Part shown: piece after piece, positions 2,879-60,993 of the stretch | Layout of the letters: the number at the start of each line of letters is the position of its first letter | How positions within the stretch are numbered: position 1 is the first letter of the stretch | Source: Candidatus Nitrotoga sp. CP45 | GTDB taxonomy: Bacteria; Pseudomonadota; Gammaproteobacteria; Burkholderiales; Gallionellaceae | Reading direction: 5' to 3' | Length of the DNA: 63,012 nt | Assembly: GCA_003402375.1 (NCBI GenBank) | Contig: QFXJ01000054.1 | Span: forward strand, 1-63,012 | Program-made: the position numbers and the translations under genes | The notes under the pieces: generated by a model | What the model was told of the DNA's origin: nothing | Database searches by the model: none | Seen by the model: the letters and a program-made list of their open reading frames with translations, nothing else

Positions 2879-2886
2879 AGCGCGAC

Positions 2887-3900: not shown

Positions 3901-3913
3901 TTGCTGCACCCCC

Positions 3914-6342: not shown

Positions 6343-6419
6343 TGCTCTATTTCCTCCCCTTGTGCTTGCGTGAAAGTAGCTTCAATGCCGCTTCCCACAC
6401 GGCCTCCCCATTGCGCTGC

Positions 6420-7274: not shown

Positions 7275-7277
7275 CTT

Positions 7278-9488: not shown

Positions 9489-9530
9489 TGCTGATACCTC
9501 TTGGAAATCTTTATCTTGTGAATGCGTCGA

Positions 9531-10136: not shown

Positions 10137-10304
10137 CGTAAGTAGCTCCCCCAACAAACAATTAGACTGCCGACGGGACAACATCGACATGCATTATCAC
10201 ACTCAATAACTGGTAATTTAAAACGACACAACATCGCTTTAAGCATTCACACGCTTAACTTGGTGCGGACCAATCCACAAGGAATAGACGCGATGAAACG
10301 ACGG

Positions 10305-42981: not shown

Positions 42982-43410
42982 CTAAAGCGATAATTTCAAC
43001 GGAAAGCGCAGAACTCCTTCAACGCCGTTGCGTTTCATCTGCACCTGTAACACGGATCTGGTTCCTGGAGCAACTTTCGCCGCCCTGCGATAAACACCTA
43101 CTTCCCCATCTTGTATTGCCTGTATCCATTGATCTTGGTCATCAGTGCGCACCGAAACCATAACGTCATGGATCGGTCCACGTTCACCAGTCACTATCAC
43201 CAAAAACTCATTCACCCCAGGACGCGGTGGGCTGGGTCTAGATTCGACTCGTACCTCCGCATCCTGCCATTTTTGCGGTTGCGTATCAGCAACTCGGTCT
43301 CCACCACATGCTACTAATAGCACCAAAAAAAATAGCTTAATGTGTTTTACATTTGTATGCCGCAATAAGTTAACCCGGGGATGCAAATTATTTTTCTGCA
43401 TTGAGTTCAT
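42982..43410 (-). CDS. FixH/YtkA-like lipoprotein
   Basis: 142 residues. A hydrophobic stretch ends in the lipobox LLVAC, so the protein is probably a lipoprotein, with a rather long n-region if ATG at 43410 is used (43401 is an alternative). The mature part has the FixH/YtkA pattern: PRPGVNEFLVIVTGERGPI, then DGEVGVYRRAAKVAPG, a beta sandwich found in oxidase copper/assembly accessory proteins (CcoH/FixH). It overlaps the gene before it and follows ccoG, as fixH follows fixG in many genomes. Confidence 0.65.
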   Translation of the reverse strand: MNSMQKNNLHPRVNLLRHTNVKHIKLFFLVLLVACGGDRVADTQPQKWQDAEVRVESRPSPPRPGVNEFLVIVTGERGPIHDVMVSVRTDDQDQWIQAIQDGEVGVYRRAAKVAPGTRSVLQVQMKRNGVEGVLRFPLKLSL

Positions 43411-43819
43411 GGGATTGTTCTTTATTATTTTTGTCTGAATCTAACGTACCGCCAATCGACGATCCATATAGATTAACCATAAACCGAACAAAAGCGCTTC
43501 CGGCTGCAACATAAAACAAAGCAATGATGAACCCCCAGTCTACCCAAGGGCGCTCATCACCCGGGCGGAGACCCCAAAAAGGAAAACTCAAACCTACCGC
43601 AACCAGTAACACCGCAACAGTCACTCCTATAAACCAATAGGGTATCTTTTTTTGCGATTCCGGAATGGTTTCTACCAGCTCCCAATCTTCAAGCCCACGT
43701 TTAGCCATACGTTCTTCATCAGAAGCATAGCCAAAATGATCATCCGGCTTCTCGCCCCAGCGAGGCTCATCTACTTTCGATAAACCTTGAATTTTTTCAC
43801 CAATATCGCTGGCGATCAT
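43388..43819 (-). CDS. Small membrane protein related to a heme-less CcoP-like protein
   Basis: 143 residues: soluble acidic N-terminal 50 residues, a first helix ending SFPFWGLRPGDERPWVDWG and a second helix FIIALFYVAAGSAFVRFMV. The first-helix ending and the W-D-x-G entry to the second resemble the 221-residue protein of the oxidase cluster (IPLWGQRPTAAIYV and PWWDKGYTIDLFYL). No heme site. Starts ATGA over the ccoG stop, with AGGAGG, so coupled to ccoG. Confidence 0.65.
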   Translation of the reverse strand: MIASDIGEKIQGLSKVDEPRWGEKPDDHFGYASDEERMAKRGLEDWELVETIPESQKKIPYWFIGVTVAVLLVAVGLSFPFWGLRPGDERPWVDWGFIIALFYVAAGSAFVRFMVNLYGSSIGGTLDSDKNNKEQSHELNAEK

Positions 43820-45156
43820 AGCTTCCTCCTTTGTTCGGAAAAATGTTGAACAGCGAATCGCTTCATCCAGGTGTCACCTGCAGAAACTTCCACCACAACA
43901 GAATATAACCCTCGTGGCAAATCCTGCGTGATGGAAAGCATAAGCGATTCTCGCCCGACTGGTGATAATTTAATGTCCTTGGCGCTAAGCTGGTAACTAC
44001 CCGGTGGCAAACCTAACACACGCACATGTAGCTCCGCTGAACGGTACAATTTATTGGAAAGTGCAATGCGATATTCTTGAACCGTGCGGCCTTGCTGGAT
44101 ATCCGCATTACCCACTGCTACATGATAAGGTTGATAAGACCATAATCCCCAAATAAACATCGCCGCACCCAATACTACAAAGGGGGTCGTCCAACCCATT
44201 CGGGCAAACAAAGAAATTGCAACGCCACGAAATTTATTTACACTTTTATTCGTACGCTCAAGCATATCAAAACGTAATAACCCATGGACTCCTTGTTTGT
44301 TATGCAAGCGATTACAAGCATCAACGCAATCTCCGCAATTAATACAACTGTCATAAATATCGGTTTTGCGCGGATCCAAATCGATAAAACAAGAAGTAAC
44401 ACAATAATTACACTTAGCGCATTCATCGCTCCGACTGGCATCGTATGCTATATGCAAAGTCTGCTTGGTTTTAAACGAATGCATCCAAACCCTGTAAATG
44501 CAGGCGTAGCGGCACCAGAAATGCCTTATTAACGCAATATCTATAAAGACGATTACGACACATACCGCATAAATCCAATGCAATGATCCCGCGAGCTTGG
44601 CGTTTTCTTGCAGTGTTACAAAAGACCACACCACACTTGGCGGATAGAAATAAAATAATGGAATTAGCGCAAAAAACATAGCCGCCCCCAAAAATGCAAC
44701 CCCGAGTAGCATCCAATTTATAATCTTATTCTTGGCACCCGCCACGCGCAGCGCTTCACCAGTTAAACTTACTTCGGCATGCTTACCTAATAGTTTGTGC
44801 GTAAGATTGTTGGCCCACTCGGCCATACTATTTTGAGGGCAAACCCAACCGCAAAACACAGTACCTGCTGTCGAGTACAGTAACACCAAACTACTCGCCA
44901 AAAAAAGCCATGCCCCGGTTACCAAGGCAAAATCAGCTAACCATATCTGCCTATCAAGCACAACAAAAGCGGCCGCACCTGGATCGATTCGGAATAGGCC
45001 ACTCGCCGGAATTAATACAACAAGGATCAAGGCCAGCATCTGCACCAACCGCCGCTTCCAACGGAATTCAGAATAAACGGGCTTGGAACCTACGGCCGTA
45101 CTGATAACCTTGACCGGGATACTGGAAATGGATTTATATTTGACGCCGCTGGCCAT
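43816..45156 (-). CDS. ccoG: CcoG/RdxA/FixG, oxidase accessory ferredoxin-like protein
   Basis: 446 residues with about five membrane helices, a GTVFCGWVCPQNSMAEWANN motif and two [4Fe-4S] groups, CAKCNYCVTSC and CINCGDCVDAC, then a C-terminal Ig-like domain (PPGSYQLSAKDIKLSP). CcoG reduces copper during cbb3 oxidase assembly. The Pro of the usual CPTGID after the first cluster is replaced (CFIDLD). Lies 8 bp after the MFS/spermidine-synthase gene and overlaps the next by 4 bp. Confidence 0.92.
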   Translation of the reverse strand: MASGVKYKSISSIPVKVISTAVGSKPVYSEFRWKRRLVQMLALILVVLIPASGLFRIDPGAAAFVVLDRQIWLADFALVTGAWLFLASSLVLLYSTAGTVFCGWVCPQNSMAEWANNLTHKLLGKHAEVSLTGEALRVAGAKNKIINWMLLGVAFLGAAMFFALIPLFYFYPPSVVWSFVTLQENAKLAGSLHWIYAVCVVIVFIDIALIRHFWCRYACIYRVWMHSFKTKQTLHIAYDASRSDECAKCNYCVTSCFIDLDPRKTDIYDSCINCGDCVDACNRLHNKQGVHGLLRFDMLERTNKSVNKFRGVAISLFARMGWTTPFVVLGAAMFIWGLWSYQPYHVAVGNADIQQGRTVQEYRIALSNKLYRSAELHVRVLGLPPGSYQLSAKDIKLSPVGRESLMLSITQDLPRGLYSVVVEVSAGDTWMKRFAVQHFSEQRRKL

Positions 45157-45164
45157 AATGTAAG

Positions 45165-47780
45165 TTAATTCCCCGTCGCATTTGCTTCACGGTCAAGCGG
45201 GCTCAGCTCCAGCAAATGTACACGGCTCAATTCCGCGTGTGCATCACCAGATTTACGCTCAATTCGCCACAATGCCCGCACCGCCTCTACGTGATATGGA
45301 TTAAGACGCAAAATTTTCTGCAACGCCTCTTTCTCGCTCAAACCATGCTCGCGCGCTTGCGCTAAAGATGAAAACATATTATCAGCCAACGCATAAGCAA
45401 TCCAGCGATCTTTTGCATTCGCCTTATAAGCCAAGTGCGTCAGCTGGTTAGCCTGTTGAGTTGCGCCACGCGCAGCCGCAAGCCAGCTACGCGTCATCAG
45501 CTCGCTTGCTACGTAGGCGCGTTCAAAAGCATCTTTATCGTTGTCTCGAATGCCAAGCAAATTTGCAGCGGCTTCCATTTTCGGCCTGGTTTTCAGCAAA
45601 AGCTGTAATAACTTTGCCACATCTAATTCACCAGCGTAGCGCGCGCGGGGCAGTCGAAACTCAATCACTGGCGACCACTCGTCTTGCACCTGTTCCTGGC
45701 TAACCGGCAGTGGCCCCCAATAGCGTCCGAGCCAAGTCCACCCCCCTTCGCCCGCAGTCGCCTCATCCTGTTGCTCCAAGGACAAACGCTGCAAATTAAG
45801 CAGCAGCCCCTGCGCGCCCATAAATTTCTGCCGTGGGCCGACCAAGGCTAAATGCATTCCATCGAGAAATATTTGCGCATCTGGAAAAACCCGTCGAAAG
45901 CTATTAAAAATTACGTTCAAAGATTTATTGTCAAATTGATTGAGCGCCAACCACTGAACAAATAGCCCATTTTCACTTAAGCGATTACGCACACGCTGAA
46001 ATTGCTGTACTGATAATAAAGAACTTGAACCTGCCAAATCCGGATGAAACACGTCGCCGATTATGACGTCATACTGATCCCGACTCGCGCTTAAGAAATG
46101 CCGTACGTCGTCACGTTCCACTTTAGTTTGGCGCAACACGTTGCGATTTAATGGAGCAAACCAGCTCGTTGCGGAATTAATCGCGCCTTGCGACAACTCA
46201 ACAGCACTACGCTCTAAATCAGGAAATGCCAGGGAGCCAGCCACAGAAATTCCGGTACCTAATCCGAGAAATAGTACCGAGCGAGGCTGCTCATGCAAAA
46301 GCAATGGAAGACGCGCTTGATTGGACTGCACGAACACCGCTGTAGGATCAGTTGAAGCATCCATTCTCTGCAAATCGGTCAGTAACACACGCTGCCCGTC
46401 TTGTTGCTCCACCACGTGAGTCATCGAAATGGCGTCTTCATAAAAATATAAATCCCTGCTCCCCGCTTGCGCCTGCGGTAATAACATATTGACTGGCGGT
46501 AACTTTACAACTGGCCACGCTGCCATTAAAAAAAGCGGTACAGCAAGCCATGCGGTACGCGACTGCGCCCAAGTTAAACCCAAGATCAACAATGCCGCAG
46601 CCGCCACCACCACCGTAGCAGCGCTACCCCAAACCGGAATCAGTACCACTCCCGCAACTACCGCGCCGAGCGCGGCACCCAGTGAATTAGCTCCATATAA
46701 CCATACCCCACCGCCATTGGAGCGGCTGTTTAATAAAGGCAACCACGCTCCAAGCGCCAGAGTAACTGGCAAAGTTACCAGTGCGAGAAGTAACCCTTGC
46801 ATTCTCAATGCTTCAAATAAAGAAGCAAACTCAGCTCGCTCCACCCACGCCGAAAGCGCAGGAAGCAACCATAAACTTAAGATAGTGAATCCTCCAGCGA
46901 CAATGGGCAAGATTACAAACCACGCTTGTCTGTGCTGGCGCGGCGCGATCAAGCTGCCTATACCAATACCCAACAGAAATGATGCCAAAATCACTGTCAG
47001 CACATACTCGGTGCGTAGCATCACCATGCCGAACAAGCGCGTCCATGCTATTTGCAAGATCAGACTTGCCGCACCGATTCCGGCATAGGCGACCAGAAAA
47101 GCTAAACGTGGTCGACTTGCCCTAATGCTTTTCTCAGTAACCTGCGCTGTGGTGTAACGCGATGAAAGCAGCAACAGCGCAATAACTCCAACACAACCAA
47201 TCGCGGCAACCACTCTAACCGCCCAGATCCAGCCCAAAGCCGGCAGCAACCAAAGTGGTAACAGTGCGCCGCAAGCAGCGCCTAGCGTGTTTAAACCGTA
47301 AATCTTCCCCAGTTGCTCCGGCCTATTTCCCACGGATGCTAAAATTAATGGAAACCCTGCCCCCATGATAAAAGCCGGGAATAACAGTAAACACAATGCG
47401 ACACTCGCAATAAGACCATACCATTGAAATAGCGAAAGTTGAGCCGCCGCGCCTTCCATTCCCGCCGACGTCATTTGCAAAATCAGAGGCAAGAATAAAG
47501 CGTAAACAGCAATACCACCTTCCAATGCAGCAAGCAACAACAACGGTCTTTTGATTTGGGAAGCCCGGCGTACCGCAAACAAACTTCCCGCCCCCAACCC
47601 CCCCATAAATACAGCGACGGTCAGCACTACCGCAAAAATACTCACACCGAATTGCAAAGAAAGTATGCGCGCCCACAATACCTCGTATGCCACGCTAGTC
47701 AGACCAAATAATCCATATAGCGCTACCAACGGCCAATAGCTACGCTTTGAAATTATTGATTGTGACTCTTTCACTAGCAT
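45165..47780 (-). CDS. Fused MFS-like/spermidine-synthase-like membrane protein
   Basis: 871 residues. The first half has about a dozen hydrophobic helices (Gly/Ala-rich transporter-like). The second half, about residues 440-650, is a spermidine synthase-type Rossmann methyltransferase fold: LFLGLGTGISVAG, VELSQGAI, DDVRHFLSASRDQYDVIIGD. A helical C-terminal region of about 200 residues follows. Substrate unknown; fused proteins of this kind are widespread and mostly uncharacterised. First of four tightly packed genes with ccoG, which hints at a respiratory or membrane-redox role, but this is inference. Confidence 0.8.
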   Translation of the reverse strand: MLVKESQSIISKRSYWPLVALYGLFGLTSVAYEVLWARILSLQFGVSIFAVVLTVAVFMGGLGAGSLFAVRRASQIKRPLLLLAALEGGIAVYALFLPLILQMTSAGMEGAAAQLSLFQWYGLIASVALCLLLFPAFIMGAGFPLILASVGNRPEQLGKIYGLNTLGAACGALLPLWLLPALGWIWAVRVVAAIGCVGVIALLLLSSRYTTAQVTEKSIRASRPRLAFLVAYAGIGAASLILQIAWTRLFGMVMLRTEYVLTVILASFLLGIGIGSLIAPRQHRQAWFVILPIVAGGFTILSLWLLPALSAWVERAEFASLFEALRMQGLLLALVTLPVTLALGAWLPLLNSRSNGGGVWLYGANSLGAALGAVVAGVVLIPVWGSAATVVVAAAALLILGLTWAQSRTAWLAVPLFLMAAWPVVKLPPVNMLLPQAQAGSRDLYFYEDAISMTHVVEQQDGQRVLLTDLQRMDASTDPTAVFVQSNQARLPLLLHEQPRSVLFLGLGTGISVAGSLAFPDLERSAVELSQGAINSATSWFAPLNRNVLRQTKVERDDVRHFLSASRDQYDVIIGDVFHPDLAGSSSLLSVQQFQRVRNRLSENGLFVQWLALNQFDNKSLNVIFNSFRRVFPDAQIFLDGMHLALVGPRQKFMGAQGLLLNLQRLSLEQQDEATAGEGGWTWLGRYWGPLPVSQEQVQDEWSPVIEFRLPRARYAGELDVAKLLQLLLKTRPKMEAAANLLGIRDNDKDAFERAYVASELMTRSWLAAARGATQQANQLTHLAYKANAKDRWIAYALADNMFSSLAQAREHGLSEKEALQKILRLNPYHVEAVRALWRIERKSGDAHAELSRVHLLELSPLDREANATGN

Positions 47781-48397: not shown

Positions 48398-48787
48398 TTA
48401 GAAAGGATAAAACCAAATAACGCCCACAATAGCATGTACGAAAGCCAACGTGACAGTAAGCCCGGCAGAAATCATATGCAACACAAATACTTGTTTACCA
48501 TATATTCCCATAGCAATGCCCAATGCCCCGGTAATTAAAAGCAAGATTAACAAAGGTACGCCCAATAAAAACATAGTTAAATGCTTCTTTTGTATAGTTG
48601 AAGGCCTATCTATTTTAATCTGGCTGGCTTGCTGTTCAAATGCCTCCATCACCCTAGTACTATCACCCTGCTGAACGTTATCATCAGCGCGCACAGTTGG
48701 TATCACACAAAATAAAAACAACATCGCTGTAATCAGCCAGCACACTATTAAATTTGGGTAGAAGATACCCCTTACATTCGCCATCAT
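48398..48787 (-). CDS. Hypothetical membrane protein of the oxidase cluster
   Basis: 129 residues with an N-terminal signal-like helix (about residues 13-33), a polar middle and two C-terminal helices (LTMFLLGVPLLILLLITGAL and a His-containing LHMISAGLTVTLAFVHAIVG). Family not recognised; the paired His in the last helices could bind heme, but that is speculation. Starts ATGA over the stop of the preceding gene. Last of the oxidase-cluster genes. Confidence 0.65.
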   Translation of the reverse strand: MMANVRGIFYPNLIVCWLITAMLFLFCVIPTVRADDNVQQGDSTRVMEAFEQQASQIKIDRPSTIQKKHLTMFLLGVPLLILLLITGALGIAMGIYGKQVFVLHMISAGLTVTLAFVHAIVGVIWFYPF

Positions 48788-49038
48788 TTCTCACTCTCAA
48801 CTGAAATTGTCTGTTGCTCTTCCTGAGCAGCTTTGCTTTCCGCATAATGCCATGTCAACACCGCCATCAAAATAAAGGGAACAAAAAGAACACCCAACAG
48901 GAATAAAAAAATAAACCAGAGCGTATCAATATGCACGTGAAGAAAGCGATAACTATCCACTGCATAACTCATTTTCACCAAAGACAATGAGAAAGCAAGA
49001 ACCATCCCCAAGTGCCGCAAGATCTTGAGCACTTTCAC
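48784..49038 (-). CDS. Small hypothetical membrane protein
   Basis: 84 residues from a GTG that overlaps the stop of the SUMF1-like gene (GTGA). Two hydrophobic segments: LGMVLAFSLSLVKMSYA, looking like a signal peptide, and LWFIFLFLLGVLFVPFILMA, then a Glu/Gln-rich tail. The frame is open further upstream, but that stretch lies inside the previous gene. Family not recognised. Confidence 0.6.
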   Translation of the reverse strand: MKVLKILRHLGMVLAFSLSLVKMSYAVDSYRFLHVHIDTLWFIFLFLLGVLFVPFILMAVLTWHYAESKAAQEEQQTISVESEK

Positions 49039-50099
49039 TCTTTTGTGTCCTTTACGCCGGAATTGTTTACACAGCGAAATCCAAAAAAATCGGAAGCATA
49101 ATTTGCAAAAGCAAAATTTCGATGAAATACTGCGGAAGAGAACGGATCCCCCTTCCATGAGCCACCACGCAATACCTTGTAGCTTCCTCCAGTCGGCACA
49201 ATGTCAATCTCTTTGTTATTTGTCGTCCTCACGATTTTTCCTTTAAACAAATCTGACGGCGCGTCAGACCCTGGATAAGGCGTAAAATCATCCGCTGTCC
49301 ACTCATTCACGTTACCCGCCATATCCATTACTCCATATGGACTAACGCCATTCGGATAAGCATTTACGTTGGTTGTAGAACCAACATTATAATAAGCATT
49401 CAACCGCTCCGGCTCCATCTTATTACCCCACGGCCAGCGCCTACCATCTATTCCACGACCAGATTTTTCCCATTCCGCTTCAGAAGGAAGTCGCTTGCCT
49501 GCCCACTTGGCGTAAGCTGTTGCATCATACCAAGACACCATGGTAACGGGGCGCAACATTTCGCCTTGAGGAATTTTGCCTTTTTTCCAGTTCAGCGGCG
49601 GACGATGTGAAGTAGCGACTACAAATTTGGCATATTGAGCATTAGTTACAGGATATTTGTCTATCCAGAAGGCGGGTAATTTAACTGAATGCTGGGGACG
49701 ATTTTGTACATCTGCACGTTCTAAATCTGTACCCATTAAAAAAGCTCCCTCAGGAATTAAAACCATACTGTCTATTTCAAGCCATTCCTCTTTGGAGAGC
49801 AAGCTTTCAATTTCTATAGCACTATATCCTGCCGCATGATTTTTTTCGGCCTCATGCGCACTATGCAACACTAAATCTTCCCCTGCAGCGCGTATGTGGG
49901 ATAATTCATCTTTTAATTCGTAAGTTGCACGCGTGCGCATTTCACCCATACGTTCGAATCCCTGATTCACCACATACAAGGTAATACCAATCGCTAACAA
50001 AACTAGGCAAATTACAAAAGTAGCCGACAAATAACGTTTGCGACGTGCATAATCTACAGCAGAATGTACAGTTTTTCTGTTTGCAGAAGTAACTGCCAT
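49035..50099 (-). CDS. Membrane-anchored SUMF1/FGE-fold protein without catalytic cysteines
   Basis: 354 residues. A transmembrane anchor (about residues 23-45), a helical linker, then from about residue 108 a formylglycine-generating-enzyme-type (SUMF1, C-type-lectin-like) domain: MVLIPEGAFLMGTD, WIDKYPVTNAQYAKF, VSWYDATAYAKWAGKRLPSEAEWE, NVNEWTADDFTPY and RGGSWKGDPFSSAVFHRN. True FGEs have a cysteine pair in the RGGSF-x-C region; here none is present, so sulfatase-type activation is unlikely. Embedded in the oxidase cluster between membrane genes, suggesting a structural or assembly role. Confidence 0.85.
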   Translation of the reverse strand: MAVTSANRKTVHSAVDYARRKRYLSATFVICLVLLAIGITLYVVNQGFERMGEMRTRATYELKDELSHIRAAGEDLVLHSAHEAEKNHAAGYSAIEIESLLSKEEWLEIDSMVLIPEGAFLMGTDLERADVQNRPQHSVKLPAFWIDKYPVTNAQYAKFVVATSHRPPLNWKKGKIPQGEMLRPVTMVSWYDATAYAKWAGKRLPSEAEWEKSGRGIDGRRWPWGNKMEPERLNAYYNVGSTTNVNAYPNGVSPYGVMDMAGNVNEWTADDFTPYPGSDAPSDLFKGKIVRTTNNKEIDIVPTGGSYKVLRGGSWKGDPFSSAVFHRNFAFANYASDFFGFRCVNNSGVKDTKE

Positions 50100-50570
50100 C
50101 TAAATATCTCTTTCTCTGTTGTCGGAACGTTGCTTATATAAAAAAGCTCGCGGACTTCTTCCGTATGTTCCTTTCACAATGGTTTCACCCATGACGCCAC
50201 CGAATGCTGCCGCAGTCATAACTACAGTCACAAACAAAGCCCACATACCAAAAGGAATTAGCGATGCATTTTCCGGAATTCCACTTAAATAAACGCTATC
50301 CAGATAACTAACCAATTTAACTATTAATGGCGGGAAATAACACAGCCATTTTCCACCAAGTCCAAAAATAACAGAAACCAATACACCCACAAAAAAAGGG
50401 AGCGCCAACATATCTATGACCCACAGGCTATTAAAATCAAGGATACCGTGAAATAACTCGATTTTTACTCCAAGTAAGCGGTCGCCAAAATAGTTCAATG
50501 CACAACCCATGGTTACTGCCACTACCCCGCTAAAAAACCGAGCCCCGGTTAAGGGTGGCAATTTGCTCAT
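50100..50570 (-). CDS. Hypothetical membrane protein of the oxidase cluster
   Basis: 156 residues with about four hydrophobic segments, including FFSGVVAVTMGCALNYFGD, LALPFFVGVLVSVIFGLGG and ALFVTVVMTAAAFGGVMG. No recognised domain. ATGA overlap with the upstream cytochrome gene; the SUMF1-like gene starts next to its stop. Probably a subunit or assembly factor of the oxidase, by context only. Confidence 0.65.
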   Translation of the reverse strand: MSKLPPLTGARFFSGVVAVTMGCALNYFGDRLLGVKIELFHGILDFNSLWVIDMLALPFFVGVLVSVIFGLGGKWLCYFPPLIVKLVSYLDSVYLSGIPENASLIPFGMWALFVTVVMTAAAFGGVMGETIVKGTYGRSPRAFLYKQRSDNRERDI

Positions 50571-51055
50571 GGGCGGTACTCATGGCCAGTAAGCATCTCA
50601 TGCTCAGCTTTACGAGTTTCTTCTAAATACCAATCTTTCACCTTTAAGCTTGCCATATAGCGTGCCAGAAGTCTCCGCTCATTTTCCGGTAGTTGCGCAT
50701 AAGACGGCATCTGATATTCTTTCTTTAAGCGGGATGGTAATATTGCCTGAGGATTGCTAGCTGAAAAATATTGATAAAACCAATCTTCACTTCGCAAAGA
50801 ACCCATACCGTCCAATATTGGGGCTGGGACGGCTTTTATAAGATCACGCACCGTCCACAATGAATGGCAACTTTTGCAATTTTGCTGGCGATATATATCC
50901 GTAGCAGCGCGCTCTAGGGTAGCAGATGCAGTGCTGAAATAAGGAATACCTTTATCGACTTCCTGAATAGTATTAAGGCGCCATAGATTACGCCCCATAA
51001 AACCTATAACCACAATTGCAATCACTACAAAAACAATTTTTTCGCCTGATTTCAT
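50567..51055 (-). CDS. Membrane-anchored monoheme cytochrome c
   Basis: 162 residues: N-terminal anchor (about residues 7-22), heme site C60-KS-C63-H64, and a likely distal Met in EYQMPSYAQLPENERRLLARYM, the same M-P-x-Y-x-x-L pattern found in CcoO and CcoP heme domains. Overlaps its neighbours by ATGA on both sides. May stand in for a CcoP-type electron entry. Confidence 0.85.
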   Translation of the reverse strand: MKSGEKIVFVVIAIVVIGFMGRNLWRLNTIQEVDKGIPYFSTASATLERAATDIYRQQNCKSCHSLWTVRDLIKAVPAPILDGMGSLRSEDWFYQYFSASNPQAILPSRLKKEYQMPSYAQLPENERRLLARYMASLKVKDWYLEETRKAEHEMLTGHEYRP

Positions 51056-51330
51056 TGGTCCTGTTGCTTTTCTTTTTCCTGACGCTTTAATACACGCTCC
51101 CGGCTTTGTATCTGTGCGGCAACCACCTCGCGACTTTTAGCATATTCCTGAGCTGACATTTTTTCTTTGTCGTCTTCATCAAATACTAGGTACTTGATAT
51201 CTTCATCGAATTGCTCATTCTTCACCCCCCATCTAATCCAATAGATAACAGCAATAATTATCATTCCTCCGACAATAAGCCAAAGGTAAATAGACCATCC
51301 ATCATCCAACGATTGCAAGTAGTTTTCCAT
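51052..51330 (-). CDS. CcoS-like small oxidase assembly protein
   Basis: 92 residues: one helix (about residues 14-33) followed by WGVKNEQFDEDIKYLVFDEDD, which resembles the CcoS pattern W-x-V-x-x-G-Q-F-D-D-L-E with an acidic end. CcoS is needed for cofactor insertion into cbb3 oxidases. The C-terminal tail is longer and charged (KRQEKEKQQDQ). Overlaps the cytochrome c gene by 4 bp. Confidence 0.6.
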   Translation of the reverse strand: MENYLQSLDDGWSIYLWLIVGGMIIIAVIYWIRWGVKNEQFDEDIKYLVFDEDDKEKMSAQEYAKSREVVAAQIQSRERVLKRQEKEKQQDQ

Positions 51331-51372
51331 GTTTTCTCCGTTGATCGTTAGAGAACCATCCTAGTAGATAAC

Positions 51373-51693
51373 CTAGAAAAGATTTCCGCCCAGCATTTGC
51401 AACCCGCCAAAAATGACTGCAACAACGATTCCTGTAATTATCAGGCCAAACATAACTTTCTCACCAAATCTCATTTTTTTTGGCGCATGGCTCCCAAATA
51501 TCACCATGTATACAATGCCTGAAAACACCAATACACCCAACAACATAAAAAAAAACACACCAGTACTAAATTGCTGGCTACGCATCCCTTCTATGCTTAG
51601 GTCTAACTTCGGTGAATATACTGGGTTAGCTAACACATTTAAAACACTATCTATATTTAGGCTTTCAAGAAATGAATAAATAATTATCTCCAT
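51373..51693 (-). CDS. Small hypothetical membrane protein
   Basis: 106 residues with two C-terminal helices (VFFFMLLGVLVFSGIVYMVI and VMFGLIITGIVVAVIFGGLQ). Family not recognised. First gene after a strong terminator, 43 bp before the CcoS-like gene, so it may begin a second transcript of the cluster. Confidence 0.65.
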   Translation of the reverse strand: MEIIIYSFLESLNIDSVLNVLANPVYSPKLDLSIEGMRSQQFSTGVFFFMLLGVLVFSGIVYMVIFGSHAPKKMRFGEKVMFGLIITGIVVAVIFGGLQMLGGNLF

Positions 51694-51714
51694 TCATTCC
51701 AAATAAATTCTTGT

Positions 51715-51747
51715 AAAAAAGAGTATGCCGCCCTTACGGCGGCATAC
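51715..51747 (-). terminator. Intrinsic terminator inside the oxidase cluster
   Basis: A 10-bp perfect stem (GTATGCCGCC with GGCGGCATAC, 5-nt loop) followed on the minus strand by CTCTTTTTT. It separates the ccoN-ccoO-like group from the cytochrome/SUMF1 group. Confidence 0.85.
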
Positions 51748-51776
51748 CTTGTGAACTAAGTTTGCAACCAGCAGCT

Positions 51777-51911
51777 CTAGGATTTATTCGACCTTATTTG
51801 AGGACTTTTCTTATCGTAGTTATCCACAAAGAAGCTATAAAAAAATGGAGCCAGAAATCCAATCGCCACCACTACCGCAAAACAAGCAGGTCCATAATCG
51901 AAATCTATCAT
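51777..51911 (-). CDS. 44-residue CcoQ-like membrane peptide
   Basis: MIDFDYGPACFAVVVAIGFL continues into APFFYSFFVDNYDKK: one membrane helix and a polar tail. AGGAGG lies 6 nt before the ATG, one of the best ribosome binding sites in the window. Placed right after the catalytic and cytochrome subunit genes, where small subunits such as CcoQ are found. No sequence-family match is claimed. Confidence 0.7.
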   Translation of the reverse strand: MIDFDYGPACFAVVVAIGFLAPFFYSFFVDNYDKKSPQIRSNKS

Positions 51912-51941
51912 TTGATGCCTCCTGAATGTAGTTACTATAAA

Positions 51942-52607
51942 TTAAACGTTATGCCGTCTATCACCATGACGAGGATCATTATCGTGATGACGAGGTTGCC
52001 AATGATAGGGCGGCAACCGTTTCACAGTAATTGTCACGCCAAGAAAAAACATCGTAAGATAAAACAAATCAATCGTGTATCCCTTATCCCACCAAGGCTG
52101 TTGACGCTCTCGTTTACCATTCGGACGATAATTGCCCTCAAAATTAGCAATTTTCACCTCTGGCCCCACAACAGTGTAATCCTTAAGATCCACATCCGGA
52201 AGCTTCATAATCTCCTCAATTTGAGGTTTGATAACACGCAGGTCATTCATACTCACTGGATGTCGTCCCTGCTGAGCCTTAAATGGGCTGTCTTTATTAA
52301 TTTCAACAATTCGTTTCATTGCCGCATCATCACCCTGAGTTTCTTGTATCGACTGAATTTCAGGGGTGTCCATAGCTTTAATATAGTCAACGTAAATAGC
52401 AGCTGTTGGACGCTGCCCCCAAAGAGGAATTGTAGTCAGGAATGCCGTTGCGACCGTTAACAAGACCAGAACAACAACAGGTACAGGCAAACGATTGTTA
52501 TCCTCCGTCATCCCACCAAGATCCTCCGCCTCCCAGAGCTGTTTGGATCGAGCTACAGTCTCTTCATGCGTCAAAGTTACCAACGGTTCATTAAATACCC
52601 AAGGCAT
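51942..52607 (-). CDS. Heme-less CcoP-like membrane protein with His-rich tail
   Basis: 221 residues. The N-terminal segment EDLGGMTEDNNRLPVP then a helix (LVLLTVATAFLTTIPLWG) recalls the CcoP start (D-G-I-x-E-x-N-N-P-L-P before its helix), but no CxxCH follows; instead there is a soluble middle of about 110 residues, a second helix (IDLFYLTMFFLGVTITV) and a tail with five histidines in the last 21 residues. A shorter relative is encoded beside ccoG. Possibly the third subunit of the oxidase. Confidence 0.65.
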   Translation of the reverse strand: MPWVFNEPLVTLTHEETVARSKQLWEAEDLGGMTEDNNRLPVPVVVLVLLTVATAFLTTIPLWGQRPTAAIYVDYIKAMDTPEIQSIQETQGDDAAMKRIVEINKDSPFKAQQGRHPVSMNDLRVIKPQIEEIMKLPDVDLKDYTVVGPEVKIANFEGNYRPNGKRERQQPWWDKGYTIDLFYLTMFFLGVTITVKRLPPYHWQPRHHDNDPRHGDRRHNV

Positions 52608-52625
52608 ATCATCGTCCCCCTTAAA

Positions 52626-53588
52626 TTATTTCAGGTTTATAACAAAATCAATTAAGTTTCGAATTTCGCTATCTTTAGCATACATGGGCACATCAGGAGG
52701 AGTAGTGATTTTACCTTCCCGATACTCATCATACTCAGAACGCCATTTTTTGAAATCAATTTTTTTGCCATCAGCGTCGACCTCGCCCCATAAATAATCA
52801 AAACGTGGCATGATGGAATGCGGTTGCACTAAACGTGGATTAAAGAAATGCAGCATCATCCACTCTCTCGACGCATTGCGTGACCCCACATGCAATAAGT
52901 CTGGTCCTTTGCGGTCAGATCCAAATGCTGTCGGAGATTCCCCATTAAAATCACCTAGCATAGGGGGCGCTCCAAACACTTGCCAATCTTGCGTTTGTTC
53001 AGGCAACAATGTATGACACCACCAACAACCCTCTCGTACAAACATGGTTTTTCCAGAGCCAGCATGTAATATATCTGAATCTGCAGCTTGCTTTAAAACC
53101 TCATCTGGAGTCCAACCTTTCGTGGCCGTCGCATTCTCCATATACGAAAGTGGCTTATCCTCAAAAGTCAGCAATTGATCGCTCTTTTTAATCAAAAAGA
53201 CAGCACCGCTTTCCTTCCTTGCTTCTGTTATACGGCCTTGTTTAACACTAAGCTCCTCAACGCCCTTACCCAAGTTAGCAGTATGAGTCACCCCATTCGG
53301 CAATGACGTCCCTGCTGGATATACATAGGCGTACACTGGCTCCATCGGCTCACCGCTTTTCGGATCTTTTCTGACCAACACTTTCAATGGCTTATTCAAA
53401 CCATTCAACAATGGATCTGCAAGCTGCCAGCCTGAATCCCACCCTGAAGTCAACTGCTTGTCCAAGCCAACCTCAGAGCTGATTGAAGCCGCAAGATCAA
53501 AGCTTGGGAAAAACAAGGTTATACTCATTGACAGCCCAAATGCAAGTCCAAACGCCCTGGAACCAATCCTATACTCTCTAAAATTCAT
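52626..53588 (-). CDS. ccoO: CcoO-like monoheme cytochrome c subunit
   Basis: 320 residues. N-terminal signal or anchor (about 12-34), roughly 140 residues of unusual sequence, then a CcoO-like heme domain: C188-WW-C191-H192, GSDRKGPDLLHVGSR (CcoO: GSKRTGPDLARVGGR), HFFNPRLVQPHSIMPRFDYLW (CcoO: YNPRDVVPESKMPSYPWL) with the distal Met. In normal CcoO the heme follows the anchor closely, so the 150-residue insertion is notable. Next to ccoN, as expected. Confidence 0.82.
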   Translation of the reverse strand: MNFREYRIGSRAFGLAFGLSMSITLFFPSFDLAASISSEVGLDKQLTSGWDSGWQLADPLLNGLNKPLKVLVRKDPKSGEPMEPVYAYVYPAGTSLPNGVTHTANLGKGVEELSVKQGRITEARKESGAVFLIKKSDQLLTFEDKPLSYMENATATKGWTPDEVLKQAADSDILHAGSGKTMFVREGCWWCHTLLPEQTQDWQVFGAPPMLGDFNGESPTAFGSDRKGPDLLHVGSRNASREWMMLHFFNPRLVQPHSIMPRFDYLWGEVDADGKKIDFKKWRSEYDEYREGKITTPPDVPMYAKDSEIRNLIDFVINLK

Positions 53589-53624
53589 TATTTTCTCCTC
53601 AGATCCTGGCTTAAAGTTTTAAGT

Positions 53625-55034
53625 TTAACGTTCGTAGGCCAATTCATGTGGCATACGTCCGACCGGAATAACAGTGCCTTCACGCGCAGTCATCCACATG
53701 TTGTATAACCAAAGAATAGTTGAAGAAAATACCATGGTCCCACCCAACCAACGGGCAATCATATAAGGATGCTCGGCGATCACAACATCGATGTATGGCA
53801 CCTCATAAATTTTACCTGCGCCCTGAATTAATCCAGCAATCGTCATTGATATCCAGTAAGTGCTGAATCCAATCAACAACAACCAGAAATGCAGATTTCC
53901 TAACGTCAACGAGTACAATTTGCGCTTCATCAATGTTTGCAGACCAAGATATACGGCCGCAGCCTCAAGAAACGTTGAGAACCCCAACAAAGCAAGATGT
54001 GCGTGCGCCACCATCCAACCTGTACCATGAATGTACCAATTGATTGAGCGCGTTTGCTGAAAACCACCCTGCATATTGAGCGGGATAGCCAGCAACACAC
54101 CAACCACAGTAAAACGCACCTCAAGATTCTCAACAAACATGTTCCATTTACCCTGCATAGTCAAGAGTATATTCGACACAAATGCAATCGCTGGCACCAG
54201 AATCAGAACACCCTCCACTGAAGCGAAGGATTTTAGCCACTCAGGCAAGGGAGCCGACATTAAATGATGCGCGGCAGGCGTTGAATAAAACACAACAATC
54301 GACCAAAAGTGCAAGTGTCCTATACGGTGAGAATACAATGGATTACCAGTCACCTTTGGAATAACATAATAGGCAATCGCTGCAGCAACGGGAGTAATCC
54401 ACAACCCCAAAACGTTATGCGCAAACCACCACGTCATGTAGGCCTCTGTCAGGCCAGTAAGATGAAAATATTCTGGTAGATTTCCAACCAAAAATACGAT
54501 AATCAACATGAAAGTTGACGCCGCAAAAAACCAGTTAGTCGTATAAATACCTTGGGTGCGGCGTTTTATTATGGTCATCCATACATTAACCGCCAATGGA
54601 ATAGATATAAATGCTGCGACAGCAAGATCCAGCGGCCAAGGGAAGTCAGAATATTCGCGCCCGGAGGTCACTCCCATCCACAATAGTGTCAAACCCAAAG
54701 CCAGGGAAACATTCCACATCATGCAATTCCACAAACCAAGCTTCTCTGACCACAACCTTGTGTTCCCCAGTATCGGTGTGATATACATCATGGCCATTGC
54801 AAACGCCATCGAAATCCAGCCAAAGATTACCGCCAGCACATGCACCTGACGCATATGACCGAATGCAAACATCTCGGTCCCCGTCACAAAATCAGGGAAA
54901 GCAAGCTTGGCCGCATTGAATGACCCCAATCCAGTTCCGATCATAAACCAAATAATGGCAGAAAAACCGAAGAAAATCGCCGCCGATCCGACCGGGATAG
55001 CCTCATTTTTAGCAAACAAATACTTAAGAATCAT
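53625..55034 (-). CDS. ccoN: CcoN, catalytic subunit I of a cbb3-type (C-family) oxidase
   Basis: 469 residues, about twelve helices. Ligands are where C-family oxidases have them: low-spin heme H65 (RQVHVLAVIFGW), CuB H206 (FAHNVLGLW), H256-H257, the cross-linking Tyr Y250 six residues before H256 (YSTPAAHH), and H344-A-H346 for hemes b3 and b. The tyrosine separates it from NO reductases. The helix IX region (MQGGFQQTRSINWYIHG) is divergent from the canonical EGPMMSIKTVN. Strong AAAGGAG upstream. Followed by the CcoO-like gene. Confidence 0.88.
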   Translation of the reverse strand: MILKYLFAKNEAIPVGSAAIFFGFSAIIWFMIGTGLGSFNAAKLAFPDFVTGTEMFAFGHMRQVHVLAVIFGWISMAFAMAMMYITPILGNTRLWSEKLGLWNCMMWNVSLALGLTLLWMGVTSGREYSDFPWPLDLAVAAFISIPLAVNVWMTIIKRRTQGIYTTNWFFAASTFMLIIVFLVGNLPEYFHLTGLTEAYMTWWFAHNVLGLWITPVAAAIAYYVIPKVTGNPLYSHRIGHLHFWSIVVFYSTPAAHHLMSAPLPEWLKSFASVEGVLILVPAIAFVSNILLTMQGKWNMFVENLEVRFTVVGVLLAIPLNMQGGFQQTRSINWYIHGTGWMVAHAHLALLGFSTFLEAAAVYLGLQTLMKRKLYSLTLGNLHFWLLLIGFSTYWISMTIAGLIQGAGKIYEVPYIDVVIAEHPYMIARWLGGTMVFSSTILWLYNMWMTAREGTVIPVGRMPHELAYER

Positions 55035-55112
55035 GCTGCATCTCCTTTTTTAGCTCTAGGCAGACAAATCGGCTGCCACTACTAGCCTTAATTCCACTAT
55101 AATTTTAAAGGG

Positions 55113-55316
55113 TTATTTTTTTGACGATTTATGCGGAGCCACCGAAGCTATCTCTTCTTTAACTATATCGCTCACTGAACCGCCCACCACCTCACCCAAC
55201 GTATCAGTACCATCCGCCAAGTGAATACGCTTGTGCGGCATCAATACATACCACGACAACCACATACTAGAAAACGCCAAAAGCAAGCAACACGTCCCCG
55301 CTATTATTGGAAGCAT
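55113..55316 (-). CDS. Small hypothetical membrane protein upstream of ccoN
   Basis: 67 residues: one N-terminal helix (about residues 4-26) and a soluble tail with Ser/Lys-rich end. Family not recognised. AGGAGG-like site (AAGGAGG region) before ATG at 55316. Together with the 93-residue gene before it, it leads the oxidase genes. Confidence 0.6.
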   Translation of the reverse strand: MLPIIAGTCCLLLAFSSMWLSWYVLMPHKRIHLADGTDTLGEVVGGSVSDIVKEEIASVAPHKSSKK

Positions 55317-55396
55317 GTTTTTCCTCCTTAACTTAAAGTTGCCAGATTTTAATTAGTTGCCAGATTTTAATTAGTTTAAACAAACCAACTCACGAC

Positions 55397-55678
55397 TTAA
55401 GCATGACGCGCATTTTCAATTGCATCATGGCGCGTCAAACCGAGCGCCAGCATCAACATAAATACAAAGCCAAACGCAAGCATCCAGAACGTCATAAACC
55501 CATTAAATGTCGTAGGTATATACGAACCTGCACCGTAACCACCCCAATCTTCAAATCCTCCTCGTCCCATCCAACACATCAAGGCAGCCCCAAACACGCT
55601 ACCATTACCCATGCCCGTTACAAATCCCGCAACTAAAGTAATCCAAAAGGATTTAGATTGTATCGACTGTTTTTGCAT
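55397..55678 (-). CDS. Small hypothetical membrane protein, first of the oxidase genes
   Basis: 93 residues with two hydrophobic segments (SFWITLVAGFVTGMGNGSVF and MTFWMLAFGFVFMLMLALGL) separated by a Gly-rich loop (GRGGFEDWGGYGAGSYIP). Family not recognised. First gene on the minus strand here; the divergent gene to its right reads the other way. Confidence 0.65.
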   Translation of the reverse strand: MQKQSIQSKSFWITLVAGFVTGMGNGSVFGAALMCWMGRGGFEDWGGYGAGSYIPTTFNGFMTFWMLAFGFVFMLMLALGLTRHDAIENARHA

Positions 55679-57511: not shown

Positions 57512-57721
57512 ATGAATAAGCTTATACAAGAAATTATTATTTACTTGGTTGTGGCTCTCAGCTCTCTGTTCATCATGAGCTATGCTGTACACATGCTAGT
57601 TGGTGGCTTGGTTAGCAAGGAAACTGAGCATTTGCTGATTATAGTCACTTGCCTCATTGGTGTAGTGGCTATAGGATTCATGGCTTGGGATGTAACACAA
57701 CGCCGCAAGGGCATTAAATAG
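57512..57721 (+). CDS. Small hypothetical membrane protein
   Basis: 69 residues with two helices (IIIYLVVALSSLFIMSYAVH and LLIIVTCLIGVVAIGFMAWD) and a basic C-terminus (TQRRKGIK). No family recognised. Same strand as and 120 bp after the polytopic protein. Confidence 0.6.
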   Translation: MNKLIQEIIIYLVVALSSLFIMSYAVHMLVGGLVSKETEHLLIIVTCLIGVVAIGFMAWDVTQRRKGIK

Positions 57722-58911: not shown

Positions 58912-59361
58912 CTAACTAGTTTTAAGCATTTCTTGAATTGCTTGATAATTTTCTTTGCTAGGAAATTGTCCTTTATGAAATACAAATTGCAAGCGCTGGT
59001 CTAATTTATCCAGCCCTGCCAGACCGAACGAACGACCTGAGTAATCCCCGTAAACTCGCAAATTTTTCACCAACTCCACATGCTTTCCATTACGCATAAT
59101 GATTCGCGTTTCCTGCTTACCGACTTCAATTGCGATGGGCGCAGTAGGCAATAACATTAACCGAGTTTTCAATATACGGTTCGCACCCGCGATAAAAAAG
59201 AAACTGGCCAGAAACGAAAATAAATATGCCAAACTGACATCACCACCATACCAAAATTTGACTACCATTGACAGTAAAGCTACGACTGTAGGAACATATA
59301 ACAACAAATCCCACATCATGCCTTTGCGGTCTTGCACTAAACTGAAACGCGTAACACTCAT
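58912..59361 (-). CDS. Hypothetical membrane protein with C-terminal soluble domain
   Basis: 149 residues: two N-terminal helices (MWDLLLYVPTVVALLSMVVK and SLAYLFSFLASFFFIAGANR) then a soluble half (EVGKQETRIIMRNGKHVELV, YGDYSGRSFGLAGLD) that looks beta-rich. The layout resembles small PH-like membrane proteins, but no family is certain. 6 bp after the thioredoxin-like gene, so probably in the same transcript. Confidence 0.6.
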   Translation of the reverse strand: MSVTRFSLVQDRKGMMWDLLLYVPTVVALLSMVVKFWYGGDVSLAYLFSFLASFFFIAGANRILKTRLMLLPTAPIAIEVGKQETRIIMRNGKHVELVKNLRVYGDYSGRSFGLAGLDKLDQRLQFVFHKGQFPSKENYQAIQEMLKTS

Positions 59362-59367
59362 ATTAGA

Positions 59368-59907
59368 TCAACCCGCACGACTTTCTGTTCCTGCCTTCAG
59401 AATTTTCGCAATTCCCGCTTCCATTTCGCCATGCAACATGCGTCCTGGTTGTACACCGCTAACGACGCCTTTATCATTGATAAAGAAAGTCCAAGGATCA
59501 CCCATCACACGGTATGCCTTGAATGCTTGCGGATTTTGGTATTGATCCATATGCAAAAAGAGCACCTGGGTTTGATATTTTTCCATTAGCGCTTTCATTA
59601 TTTGCAACTGGCCATCGCACACAGTGCAATGGCCAGGTGTAGCAAACTCCAAGACAATAGGTTTGCCCAGCGCCAACGCTTTATCTAAAGAGTATTGGTA
59701 CATGCGTGCATCTGGCTGACGATATGTCGTCATTTTGCTCATATCTCCACCGACATCTGCCAGTGTTTTGGTGGGCAAACTAGGTGCAAGCATACCCTTC
59801 TGCAGCACTCCCATTGAAGCTCCACCTATGCCCCATGCAGAAAATTGCTCACCGCAGCCACTAACAAGGCCGATGGTAACAAAAAGCCATAATATTCTTA
59901 TTTTCAC
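59368..59907 (-). CDS. Thioredoxin-fold lipoprotein
   Basis: About 179 residues. The GTG at 59907 overlaps the stop of the upstream gene (GTGA) and gives a good lipoprotein signal ending LVSGC (Cys18); ATG at 59922 is possible. A thioredoxin domain with the redox motif C94-TV-C97 in ATPGHCTVCDGQL, LFLHMDQYQN, and the cis-Pro segment GDPWTFFINDKG. Could keep cytochrome heme-site cysteines reduced or handle copper for the oxidase. Coupled to the CcoN half-protein gene. Confidence 0.78.
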   Translation of the reverse strand: MKIRILWLFVTIGLVSGCGEQFSAWGIGGASMGVLQKGMLAPSLPTKTLADVGGDMSKMTTYRQPDARMYQYSLDKALALGKPIVLEFATPGHCTVCDGQLQIMKALMEKYQTQVLFLHMDQYQNPQAFKAYRVMGDPWTFFINDKGVVSGVQPGRMLHGEMEAGIAKILKAGTESRAG

Positions 59908-60416
59908 TTGAGCCGGTTCCATCCATTACAAGTGCGGTATATATTATATCCCCAGATAATATTAGCCAGCAAAACCACACTACCGAAAATTCCTGCAAGC
60001 GACATAAATCGTGATGCCGCCAATTCTCCATCGTCATCAATGAAAATACCAATCAACCCTGCCGCACTAAAGAAAACTACGACCCCCAGCAAACCAAGGT
60101 TGTGCATCCAGAAGTGAACTTTGACCAAACGCAAACTGTAGATGGAGCGACGCACCAATCGTGGTATCAGATAATATACCGCGCCGAAAATAGCCATTTC
60201 CACCCATCCCAGCAAATTAATATGCGTATGCCCTAAAACGATCCTATGGCCAGGTATCCCGCTATTAACAAAATGCCTAAAGGTGGGAACTCCCCCCATC
60301 AAAGCCCCCCAGGAAAAACCAATTATGCTATAAATGATACATGCATAGATAAACCACAATGTATATTTGGTGTATTCTTTGTCCTGAGTCCAAGGTTCAT
60401 TTAGTTCCTGCATCAT
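59904..60416 (-). CDS. Stand-alone CcoN C-terminal-half-like membrane protein
   Basis: 170 residues, four helices. H63-T-H65 in LGHTHINLLGWVEMAIFG, YYLIPRL, SIYSLRLVKVHFW: the same layout as helix X onward of CcoN (canonical GHVHSGALGW). It has no CuB histidines or tyrosine. Overlaps the monoheme cytochrome gene by 20 bp and the thioredoxin-like gene by 4 bp, so all three are coupled. Related to the 172-residue protein at 42.5 kb. A membrane heme b protein is a reasonable guess. Confidence 0.72.
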   Translation of the reverse strand: MMQELNEPWTQDKEYTKYTLWFIYACIIYSIIGFSWGALMGGVPTFRHFVNSGIPGHRIVLGHTHINLLGWVEMAIFGAVYYLIPRLVRRSIYSLRLVKVHFWMHNLGLLGVVVFFSAAGLIGIFIDDDGELAASRFMSLAGIFGSVVLLANIIWGYNIYRTCNGWNRLK

Positions 60417-60993
60417 GCTGATTCTCTTTCGTTTTTAATTTCACTTCTTCACGTACATCTTTATACTCCGATTTCCAACCATCTGGCGCCCACATCCTAA
60501 CCATCTCATCAATAAACTTGGACTCTCCACCCACAGGCGGGAGTCGCGACGCATTAGACCCTGGGTTGGCTCGCAACTCAGAAAGAAACTGAGCAATCGC
60601 CTGCAAGTCTGCTGGAGGCAATTTCGCTACAAAAGCAGCTCCTTTAGAAGGACCGTGATCCATCGTCGTTCCAGAGTACGATGCTTCTGGATCTTTTAAA
60701 AATTTATTAAGATACTCAAGAGTTCGCTTGGAACCGATACCATCAAGAACCAGCCCCATATTTGTACCATTGCGCATTGCGCGGTGGCAAACAGTGCATC
60801 CCGCTGTACGAAATAATTCAGACCCGCGCAAACCTTCTGTTGAAAAATCATACTGAAGCACTGGGAACATCGGCTTATCCAAACGTGACCTGACTACTTC
60901 TAACACCAACCAACTGCCCAAAGCCATAATGCCAATTAGCGCAAACCCCCCAAATAGCAATTTTTCTCCAAGCTTCATATTGCTAATTGCCAT
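60397..60993 (-). CDS. Membrane-anchored monoheme cytochrome c
   Basis: 198 residues: anchor at about residues 13-33, heme site C66-TV-C69-H70, and a soluble rest with possible distal Met in TTMDHGPSKG. The last 50 residues (KFIDEMVRMWAPDGWKSEYK) are charged and unlike standard cytochromes. The pairing with a CcoN half-protein mimics NorC with NorB or CcoO with CcoN, but without a catalytic subunit in this transcript. ATG at 60993 follows GGGGT at 8 nt. Confidence 0.85.
   Translation of the reverse strand: MAISNMKLGEKLLFGGFALIGIMALGSWLVLEVVRSRLDKPMFPVLQYDFSTEGLRGSELFRTAGCTVCHRAMRNGTNMGLVLDGIGSKRTLEYLNKFLKDPEASYSGTTMDHGPSKGAAFVAKLPPADLQAIAQFLSELRANPGSNASRLPPVGGESKFIDEMVRMWAPDGWKSEYKDVREEVKLKTKENQHDAGTK

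Follow-up and report, generated by a model that had tools for sequence, protein, structure and literature searches.

Contig QFXJ01000054.1 of Candidatus Nitrotoga sp. CP45 raises the question of how a cbb3-like oxidase might be assembled when no CcoP is encoded beside its catalytic subunit. In the window, by which we mean the whole 63,012-nucleotide stretch analysed here, a preliminary description had drawn attention to positions 48398-55678, where a CcoN is accompanied by a CcoO-like cytochrome and a series of small genes, and had suggested a distinct oxidase complex with many extra subunits. Two key questions are: (i) whether this CcoN belongs to an ordinary cbb3 oxidase; and (ii) whether the small genes belong with it. 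From comparisons of the sequences, we conclude that the locus probably represents a distinct lineage of C-family heme-copper oxygen reductases with a split CcoP, and that the small proteins may be its extra subunits or assembly factors dedicated to it.

The host genome comprises 2.8 Mb in 59 contigs, with 47% GC. Every gene of the preliminary description was found at its place on the minus strand of 48398-55678, the products having 93, 67, 469, 320, 221, 106, 92, 162, 156, 354, 84 and 129 residues. The interval holds those genes as described; the full unit is larger, extending from approximately 42.4 to 61.9 kb, and adds a monoheme and a diheme cytochrome, mini-COX1 proteins, a thioredoxin-like protein, a CcoG-like protein and an 871-residue membrane protein with spermine-synthase-like character. 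Up to 101 other loci encode the same proteins, so these are not chance open reading frames. The catalytic subunit, the cytochromes and the CcoP-like anchor protein are the following:

53625..55034, minus strand: CcoN-like catalytic subunit, 469 residues (PF00115, 261 bits)
52626..53588, minus strand: CcoO-like cytochrome with one heme and a long N-terminal extension, 320 residues (FixO domain, CxxCH)
51942..52607, minus strand: p221, probably related to the N-terminal anchor of CcoP but without heme (two predicted transmembrane helices)
50567..51055, minus strand: cyt162, membrane-anchored monoheme cytochrome c (PF00034 over cut-off)
60397..60993, minus strand: cyt198, second membrane-anchored monoheme cytochrome c (PF00034, E 2e-8)
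61105..61884, minus strand: diheme cytochrome c, c4/Cyc1-like (named by resemblance), candidate soluble electron donor (two Cytochrom_C stretches)

The catalytic subunit had been described as possessing all metal ligands and the active-site tyrosine, and this is upheld across its relatives. It matches PF00115 along its length and aligns with chain A of 3mk7 (E 5e-61). In 92/92 variant sequences, the histidines that ligate heme b, heme b3 and CuB are kept, as is the active-site Tyr located in the helix that precedes the HH pair. These come from 101 variant loci, which include some genomes twice and of which 92 have a clean CcoN, 85 distinct. The protein falls far below the NCBIfam ccoN cut-off (TIGR00780; 225.8 versus 583 bits) and is approximately 30-33% identical to canonical CcoN. 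In a tree of 49 hand-chosen rows (sister rows L135, L139 and L141 being left out), variant and canonical CcoN each form one side of a branch with 100/100 support. A sister clade is supported at 95/98, and its join to the variant clade at 93/97, unstarred; the tool warned of long branches. By this tree, the variant CcoN lies outside the canonical clade and is a C-family variant, not a canonical member; it does not group with CcoN of ordinary ccoNOQP operons, and the rest of the genome yielded no normal ccoP. The suggestion of a distinct oxidase is thus borne out as to lineage, and the many extra subunits are candidates.

Q322 of this CcoN stands where chain A of 3mk7 has E323. Canonical CcoN sequences have Glu (14) or Asp (2) there (n=16), and Gln is found in all 92 variant sequences, in the sister clade (10/10), in a Nitrospirae row and in two other C-family clades (7/7). 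Our guess is that the change from Glu to Gln may alter heme b3. Other changes in the variant are S240 to G, Y237 to H and D340 to G (91/92), in canonical residue numbers, of which E323 and Y251 agree with the 3mk7 alignment.

The most conspicuous difference from a canonical operon is the missing diheme CcoP, which the preliminary description had noted within its interval and which holds for the genome at large. FixP_N, the mark of the CcoP N-terminus, was not found in the host genome. In a family sample of 120 genomes, it is present in 80 of the 81 with canonical CcoN, including 13/13 with both forms, and in none of the 25 with variant CcoN only; two further genomes have FixP_N without any CcoN match, and 12 have neither. 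FixP_N therefore tracks canonical CcoN only, and no ordinary CcoP seems to serve the variant CcoN. The place of the CcoP membrane part appears to be taken by p221, found in 94/94 loci with room for it (presence in a locus being defined as a tblastn match anywhere in the locus, given room). FixP_N is listed for 21 of 30 members of the p221 family at E values up to 5, the best being 8.4e-5, and the model of p221 has a pLDDT of 82. We consider p221 probably a heme-less relative of the CcoP membrane anchor, as had been proposed, with the support confined to the anchor domain. A second protein of the unit, p143, matches the p221 N-terminus (HHalign probability 93%, E 4e-7); its probability against CcoP is 0.7%.

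The preliminary description placed a separate monoheme cytochrome in the position of CcoP. This is correct for cyt162, which has CxxCH and, in most members, MPS, and which lies beside variant CcoN in 86/89 loci with room. The raw count was 89/89, from which L132, L197 and L208 were subtracted as cross-hits to cyt198; the genomes of these loci, G556 and G576, carry cyt162 on another contig. The loss of heme is less complete than was supposed, as cyt198 lies outside the interval originally given. This second cytochrome and the mini-COX1 gene c1a lie 2.5 kb or less apart in 61/61 c1a loci with room, and a cytochrome similar to it (27-40%) occurs in 10/10 sister-clade loci. Together, CcoO, cyt162 and cyt198 amount to three membrane c hemes, the number in the canonical cbb3 enzyme, so that the c-heme count may equal that of an ordinary cbb3 oxidase. 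CcoP thus looks as though it were split into an anchor and two monoheme cytochromes. The diheme cytochrome is found within 3.5 kb of c1a in 53/61 loci, and in genome G050 a diheme cytochrome lies 1.9 kb, and a monoheme one 2.6 kb, upstream of variant CcoN on the opposite strand.

CcoO itself is present in 97/97 loci with room. Its FixO domain starts at residue 178, the counterpart of residue 55 in chain B of 3mk7, and has CxxCH at 188; the N-terminal extension therefore amounts to approximately 120 residues, an insertion that is indeed present and is shorter than the 150 residues first reported. The model of CcoO (pLDDT 65) shows the extra stretch as beta-rich and the heme-domain part as poor. 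In sum, the variant resembles canonical CcoNO(Q)P enzymes (3mk7, 5djq) in the CcoN fold, the ligands of heme b, heme b3 and CuB, the Tyr, the monoheme CcoO and the CcoS- and CcoG-like neighbours, and differs from them in having no diheme CcoP, in the extra CcoO stretch and in approximately ten extra recurring genes.

It may well be, although we lean slightly against it, that the locus is merely the "distal" (or "proximal") cbb3 form already known for Gallionellaceae and Zetaproteobacteria, and nothing new. Both forms are reported from these groups: passages of PMC7029218 state that Zetaproteobacteria have both, and those of PMC10734462 that most Gallionellaceae have one or the other. In Sideroxydans ES-1, according to the part of PMC8788666 that treats the two cbb3 clusters, the proximal and distal clusters are unlike in subunit composition, the distal form being up on thiosulfate and the proximal on Fe(II)-citrate. 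The known forms (Ducluzeau 2008, as cited in PMC8788666, PMC7029218 and PMC10734462) share with the variant the same groups of organisms, two CcoN forms and differing subunits, the comparison being made by description. In contrast, the cited passages on proximal and distal forms contain no such parts list: they do not mention p221, the FGE protein, the small genes or the cluster's separate cytochromes, and nor do the corresponding passages of PMC6050957, PMC4643136, PMC3179512, PMC3770913, PMC5492636, PMC11412304, PMC10654088, PMC6443915 and PMC5513912. Nor do any of the titles and abstract openings listed in the literature searches present these genes as components of an oxidase; papers behind subscription (Ducluzeau 2008, Barco 2015) were outside this scope, and absence from the literature is unproven. 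Earlier trees probably already contain the clade itself, under one or the other of the two cbb3 names, and what seems new is the split CcoP together with a strict small-gene cassette.

The sister clade (L133-L142) provides a close comparison for the distinct lineage that we favour. It shares 56-61% CcoN identity, Gln at the E323 place and a mini-COX1 gene, and in L136 and L142 it also has a FixP_N-only protein with one or more separate monoheme cytochromes. Both sister FixP_N-only proteins tested (121 and 122 residues) pass the Pfam cut-off, and in L142 the protein is followed by two separate monoheme cytochromes. The clade differs in its short CcoO (173 residues in L136 and L142), and p93, p67, p106, p156, the FGE-fold protein, p129 and the 871-residue protein were undetected in its ten loci. 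We note that there are two further deep C-family CcoN clades, one of approximately 540-564 residues (L102-L105) and one, "fused", of approximately 960-1033 residues as an open frame (L101, L246, L247). These share C-family membership and Gln at E323 with the variant; they are separate deep clades, and the small genes were undetected at L101-L105.

The second question concerns the remaining genes of the original interval, which are as follows:

55397..55678, minus strand: p93, small membrane protein with a TGMGNGSVF motif (recurrence and co-occurrence)
55113..55316, minus strand: p67, single-transmembrane protein (recurrence across loci)
51373..51693, minus strand: p106, small membrane protein (two hydrophobic segments)
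51052..51330, minus strand: p92, CcoS/FixS-like maturation protein (FixS E 0.005, under cut-off)
50100..50570, minus strand: p156, small membrane protein (recurrence across loci)
49035..50099, minus strand: FGE/SUMF1-fold protein, 354 residues, with an N-terminal hydrophobic anchor and without the Cys pair (PF03781, 191 bits)
48784..49038, minus strand: p84, small membrane protein with a GTG start (recurrence across loci)
48398..48787, minus strand: p129, small membrane protein (recurrence across loci)

The at least six small membrane proteins of the preliminary description are thus present, and p93, p67, p106, p156, p84 and p129 have either no Pfam match or one under cut-off. Its CcoS-like and SUMF1-fold proteins are there too, the former with a FixS match under cut-off and the latter with the PF03781 match. 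Among loci with room, p93 recurs in 99/99, p67 in 97/101 (its conservation resting on 8 sequences), p106 in 87/91, p92 in 86/89, the FGE-fold protein in 80/84, p84 in 80/84, p129 in 77/81 and p156 in 80/89. The small genes had been tied to this CcoN, and the tie holds genome-wide for p221 and p93, the two searched for in that way, the others having been compared inside loci: p221 is found in 38/38 carriers of variant CcoN and 0/82 other genomes of the family sample, and p93 in 31/31 carriers and 0/338 others of a class sample, the latter including sister genome G154 and three genomes with CcoN relatives of 32-33% identity.

Gene order is similarly conserved. The strict order 93-67-N-O-221-106-92-cyt-156-FGE-84-129 is present in 68 of 80 loci that are long enough, and in 35 of 46 these 12 genes are followed in strict order by spd-G-p143, giving 15 genes. 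Of the 12-gene misses, six lack a detectable p67 or p156, three are rearranged (L128, L161, L204) and three are split (L132, L197, L208). Loss of the second half of the genes in some zetaproteobacteria was considered and rejected, because G556 and G576 have the block p106-p92-cyt162-p156-FGE on another contig in the same order. Such co-inheritance without linkage argues for joint function. Contig ends explain the gap beside CcoN in G548 and G690, a less clear case being G615.

In 73 of 75 members of the FGE-fold family, the catalytic segment, where formylglycine-generating enzymes carry a copper-binding Cys pair, contains no Cys (two members are without the search motif), and the protein therefore probably makes no formylglycine. 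Our guess is that its role is structural.

An ordinary CcoNO-type cbb3 core whose small genes are mostly factors for assembly and for copper and heme insertion, rather than subunits, is in our view a less likely explanation. It draws on the resemblance of p92 to CcoS and of the 446-residue protein to CcoG, on the CxxC of the thioredoxin-like protein, and on the presence of a CcoG-like gene after canonical operons as well (L099, L100, L106-L109; 21-25% identity). On the other hand, p93, p67, p106, p156, p84 and p129 have no maturation family over cut-off and were undetected at those same six canonical loci, and so many lineage-specific assembly factors for a single enzyme would, in our judgement, be unusual.

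Extending the unit on both sides are the following genes:

45165..47780, minus strand: 871-residue multi-transmembrane protein with a spermine-synthase-like domain (PF01564 over cut-off)
43816..45156, minus strand: CcoG/FixG-like ferredoxin membrane protein, 446 residues (Fer4_18 and Fer4_5 over cut-off)
43388..43819, minus strand: p143, membrane protein related to the p221 N-terminus (HHalign versus p221)
42982..43410, minus strand: 142-residue protein in the place of FixH (no Pfam match; tblastn match in a minority of loci)
42450..42968, plus strand: mini-COX1 c1b (PF00115 positions 310-418, last part of the model; HxH kept)
57512..57721, plus strand: p69, small membrane protein on the opposite strand (recurrence across loci)
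58912..59361, minus strand: p149, two-transmembrane protein (recurrence across loci)
59368..59922, minus strand: thioredoxin-like protein with a conserved CTxCD (PF13192 over cut-off)
59904..60416, minus strand: mini-COX1 c1a (PF00115 positions 299-406, last part of the model; HxH kept)

The 871-residue protein, with approximately 12 transmembrane segments, follows p129 in 72/77 variant loci; the CcoG-like gene is found in 47/52 and p143 in 39/47. Near variant CcoN, c1a, the thioredoxin-like gene and p149 each occur in 50/61 loci, and p69 in 42/61. Elsewhere in the window, a gene cluster at 2279-10190 (minus strand) reads as a putative alternative complex III, and transposase-like open reading frames were seen by eye at 38-409 (plus) and 12231-13319 (minus).

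Within the family sample, the same CcoN (84-100% identical) is carried by 38 of 120 genomes, and other C-family CcoN proteins there are 29-33% identical. The class sample has 31 carriers in 369 genomes, our own included; the other 30 lie at 78-84%, one of them fragmented. A phylum sample adds 41 of 299 genomes besides our own, 40 with best matches at 75-81% and one at 69%, and a single family (f201) holds 37 of these 41. Across Gallionellaceae-like, gamma- and zetaproteobacterial genomes, the variant clade is mostly 75-100% identical, and in the range of 34-69% only G154 (60%) appears among the matches listed for the samples (E limits 1e-20 and 1e-72). A scan of named genomes gave, among the best 80 of 269 relatives, 69 of this lineage, 10 of the sister clade (Arenicellales, other gammaproteobacterial metagenome-assembled genomes and one named Comamonadaceae) and one Nitrospirae metagenome-assembled genome. 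A plasmid search gave 11 records, 30-34% identical among the ten matches listed.

The oxidase was considered as a marker of iron oxidation and rejected, because the host has a nitrite oxidoreductase (NXR). The NXR alpha homologue, of 1169 residues with a twin-arginine-like signal, is located on L262 (94-3603, minus strand) and scores 770 bits against the Kuenenia nitrite oxidoreductase subunit A (7b04). The sole Porin_O_P protein of the host is without a heme motif and is therefore not a Cyc2. Among the 69 variant loci of the named scan, 27 carry names of groups known for oxidising iron (Gallionella, Gallionellaceae, Sideroxydans, Ferrovum, Ferrovaceae, Mariprofundaceae/-ales and Zetaproteobacteria; L166 and L192 being one metagenome-assembled genome), and the remaining 42 are labelled more broadly or otherwise, for example as Gammaproteobacteria, Chromatiaceae, Nitrosomonadales or Thiotrichaceae. 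The genome has one full-length COX1 and two short ones. As the only heme-copper oxidase found in a nitrite-oxidising host, the enzyme is likely to be the terminal oxidase of nitrite respiration. Nitric oxide reductases, in which the active-site Tyr is lost, stand close to C-family enzymes, and it is very improbable that the present enzyme serves chiefly to reduce nitric oxide or to detoxify and not as an energy-conserving terminal oxidase: the Gln at the E323 place and a host that by its genes oxidises nitrite would suit such a role, but the Tyr and three CuB His are kept in 92/92 sequences and the host has no other full-length COX1. Most likely, then, the enzyme is an O2 reductase fed by cytochrome c.

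Several points weigh against a distinct lineage with a split CcoP. The oxidase complex is a prediction from its genes. The change from Glu to Gln was considered as a mark of the lineage and rejected, as it does not mark the lineage by itself when two other C-family clades share the Gln. The window's own p221 has no Pfam match, FixP_N included, and p221 as a full CcoP homologue had to be abandoned, HHalign against whole canonical CcoP giving a probability of 7%. Because cyt162 matches FixO in addition to the general models of cytochrome c, "split CcoP" names the parts and is not proven descent; cyt198, which is not part of the core operon, may instead donate electrons separately. The cassette is also not without gaps, with p156 undetectable in 9/89 loci and c1a, the thioredoxin-like gene and p149 not nearby in 11/61. 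Finally, no second full-length COX1 was found in the host genome, where cytochrome bd was not searched for.

If the distinct lineage is accepted, electrons would pass from a soluble cytochrome (the diheme protein, or cytochromes of the nitrite or Fe(II) chains) to cyt198 and cyt162, then to CcoO, heme b and the heme b3-CuB site, where O2 would be converted to water, with proton pumping like that of cbb3. The protein p221 would occupy the site of the CcoP helix, the small membrane proteins would be extra subunits or dedicated assembly factors, and the FGE-fold protein would be a structural pseudoenzyme. Insertion of heme and copper may be aided by p92 and by the CcoG-like, thioredoxin-like and mini-COX1 proteins. 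With respect to the donor, the part of PMC8788666 concerned associates a Cyc1 homologue of ES-1 with a cbb3 cluster, which may be this variant cluster, and a passage of PMC5513912 relates an earlier suggestion that Cyc1 interacts with the cbb3 oxidase of PV-1.

A bolder picture, which we offer tentatively and regard as possible rather than likely, is of a large cbb3-derived complex of at least 10 polypeptides, in which CcoP is broken into a heme-less anchor and two monoheme cytochromes, and which has gained small subunits particular to the lineage as well as an FGE-fold subunit devoid of catalytic activity. Such a complex would be retuned, through Glu to Gln by heme b3, for high-potential donors (nitrite, Fe(II)), and would have spread as one cassette between Gallionellaceae, gamma- and zetaproteobacteria.

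An implication concerns how these organisms are interpreted. For Nitrotoga fabula, a cbb3-type oxidase is predicted in PMC6050957, and genome papers, to judge from passages of PMC6050957 and PMC4643136, score nitrite and iron oxidisers as having a high-affinity cbb3 enzyme and infer an oxygen niche from it. If the subunit plan and the residue by heme b3 are indeed different, then O2 affinity, donor and pumping would not be transferable from Pseudomonas or Rhodobacter, and textbook cbb3 assumptions may fail for these microbes. The strict co-occurrence, in turn, yields a short list of uncharacterised candidate subunits.

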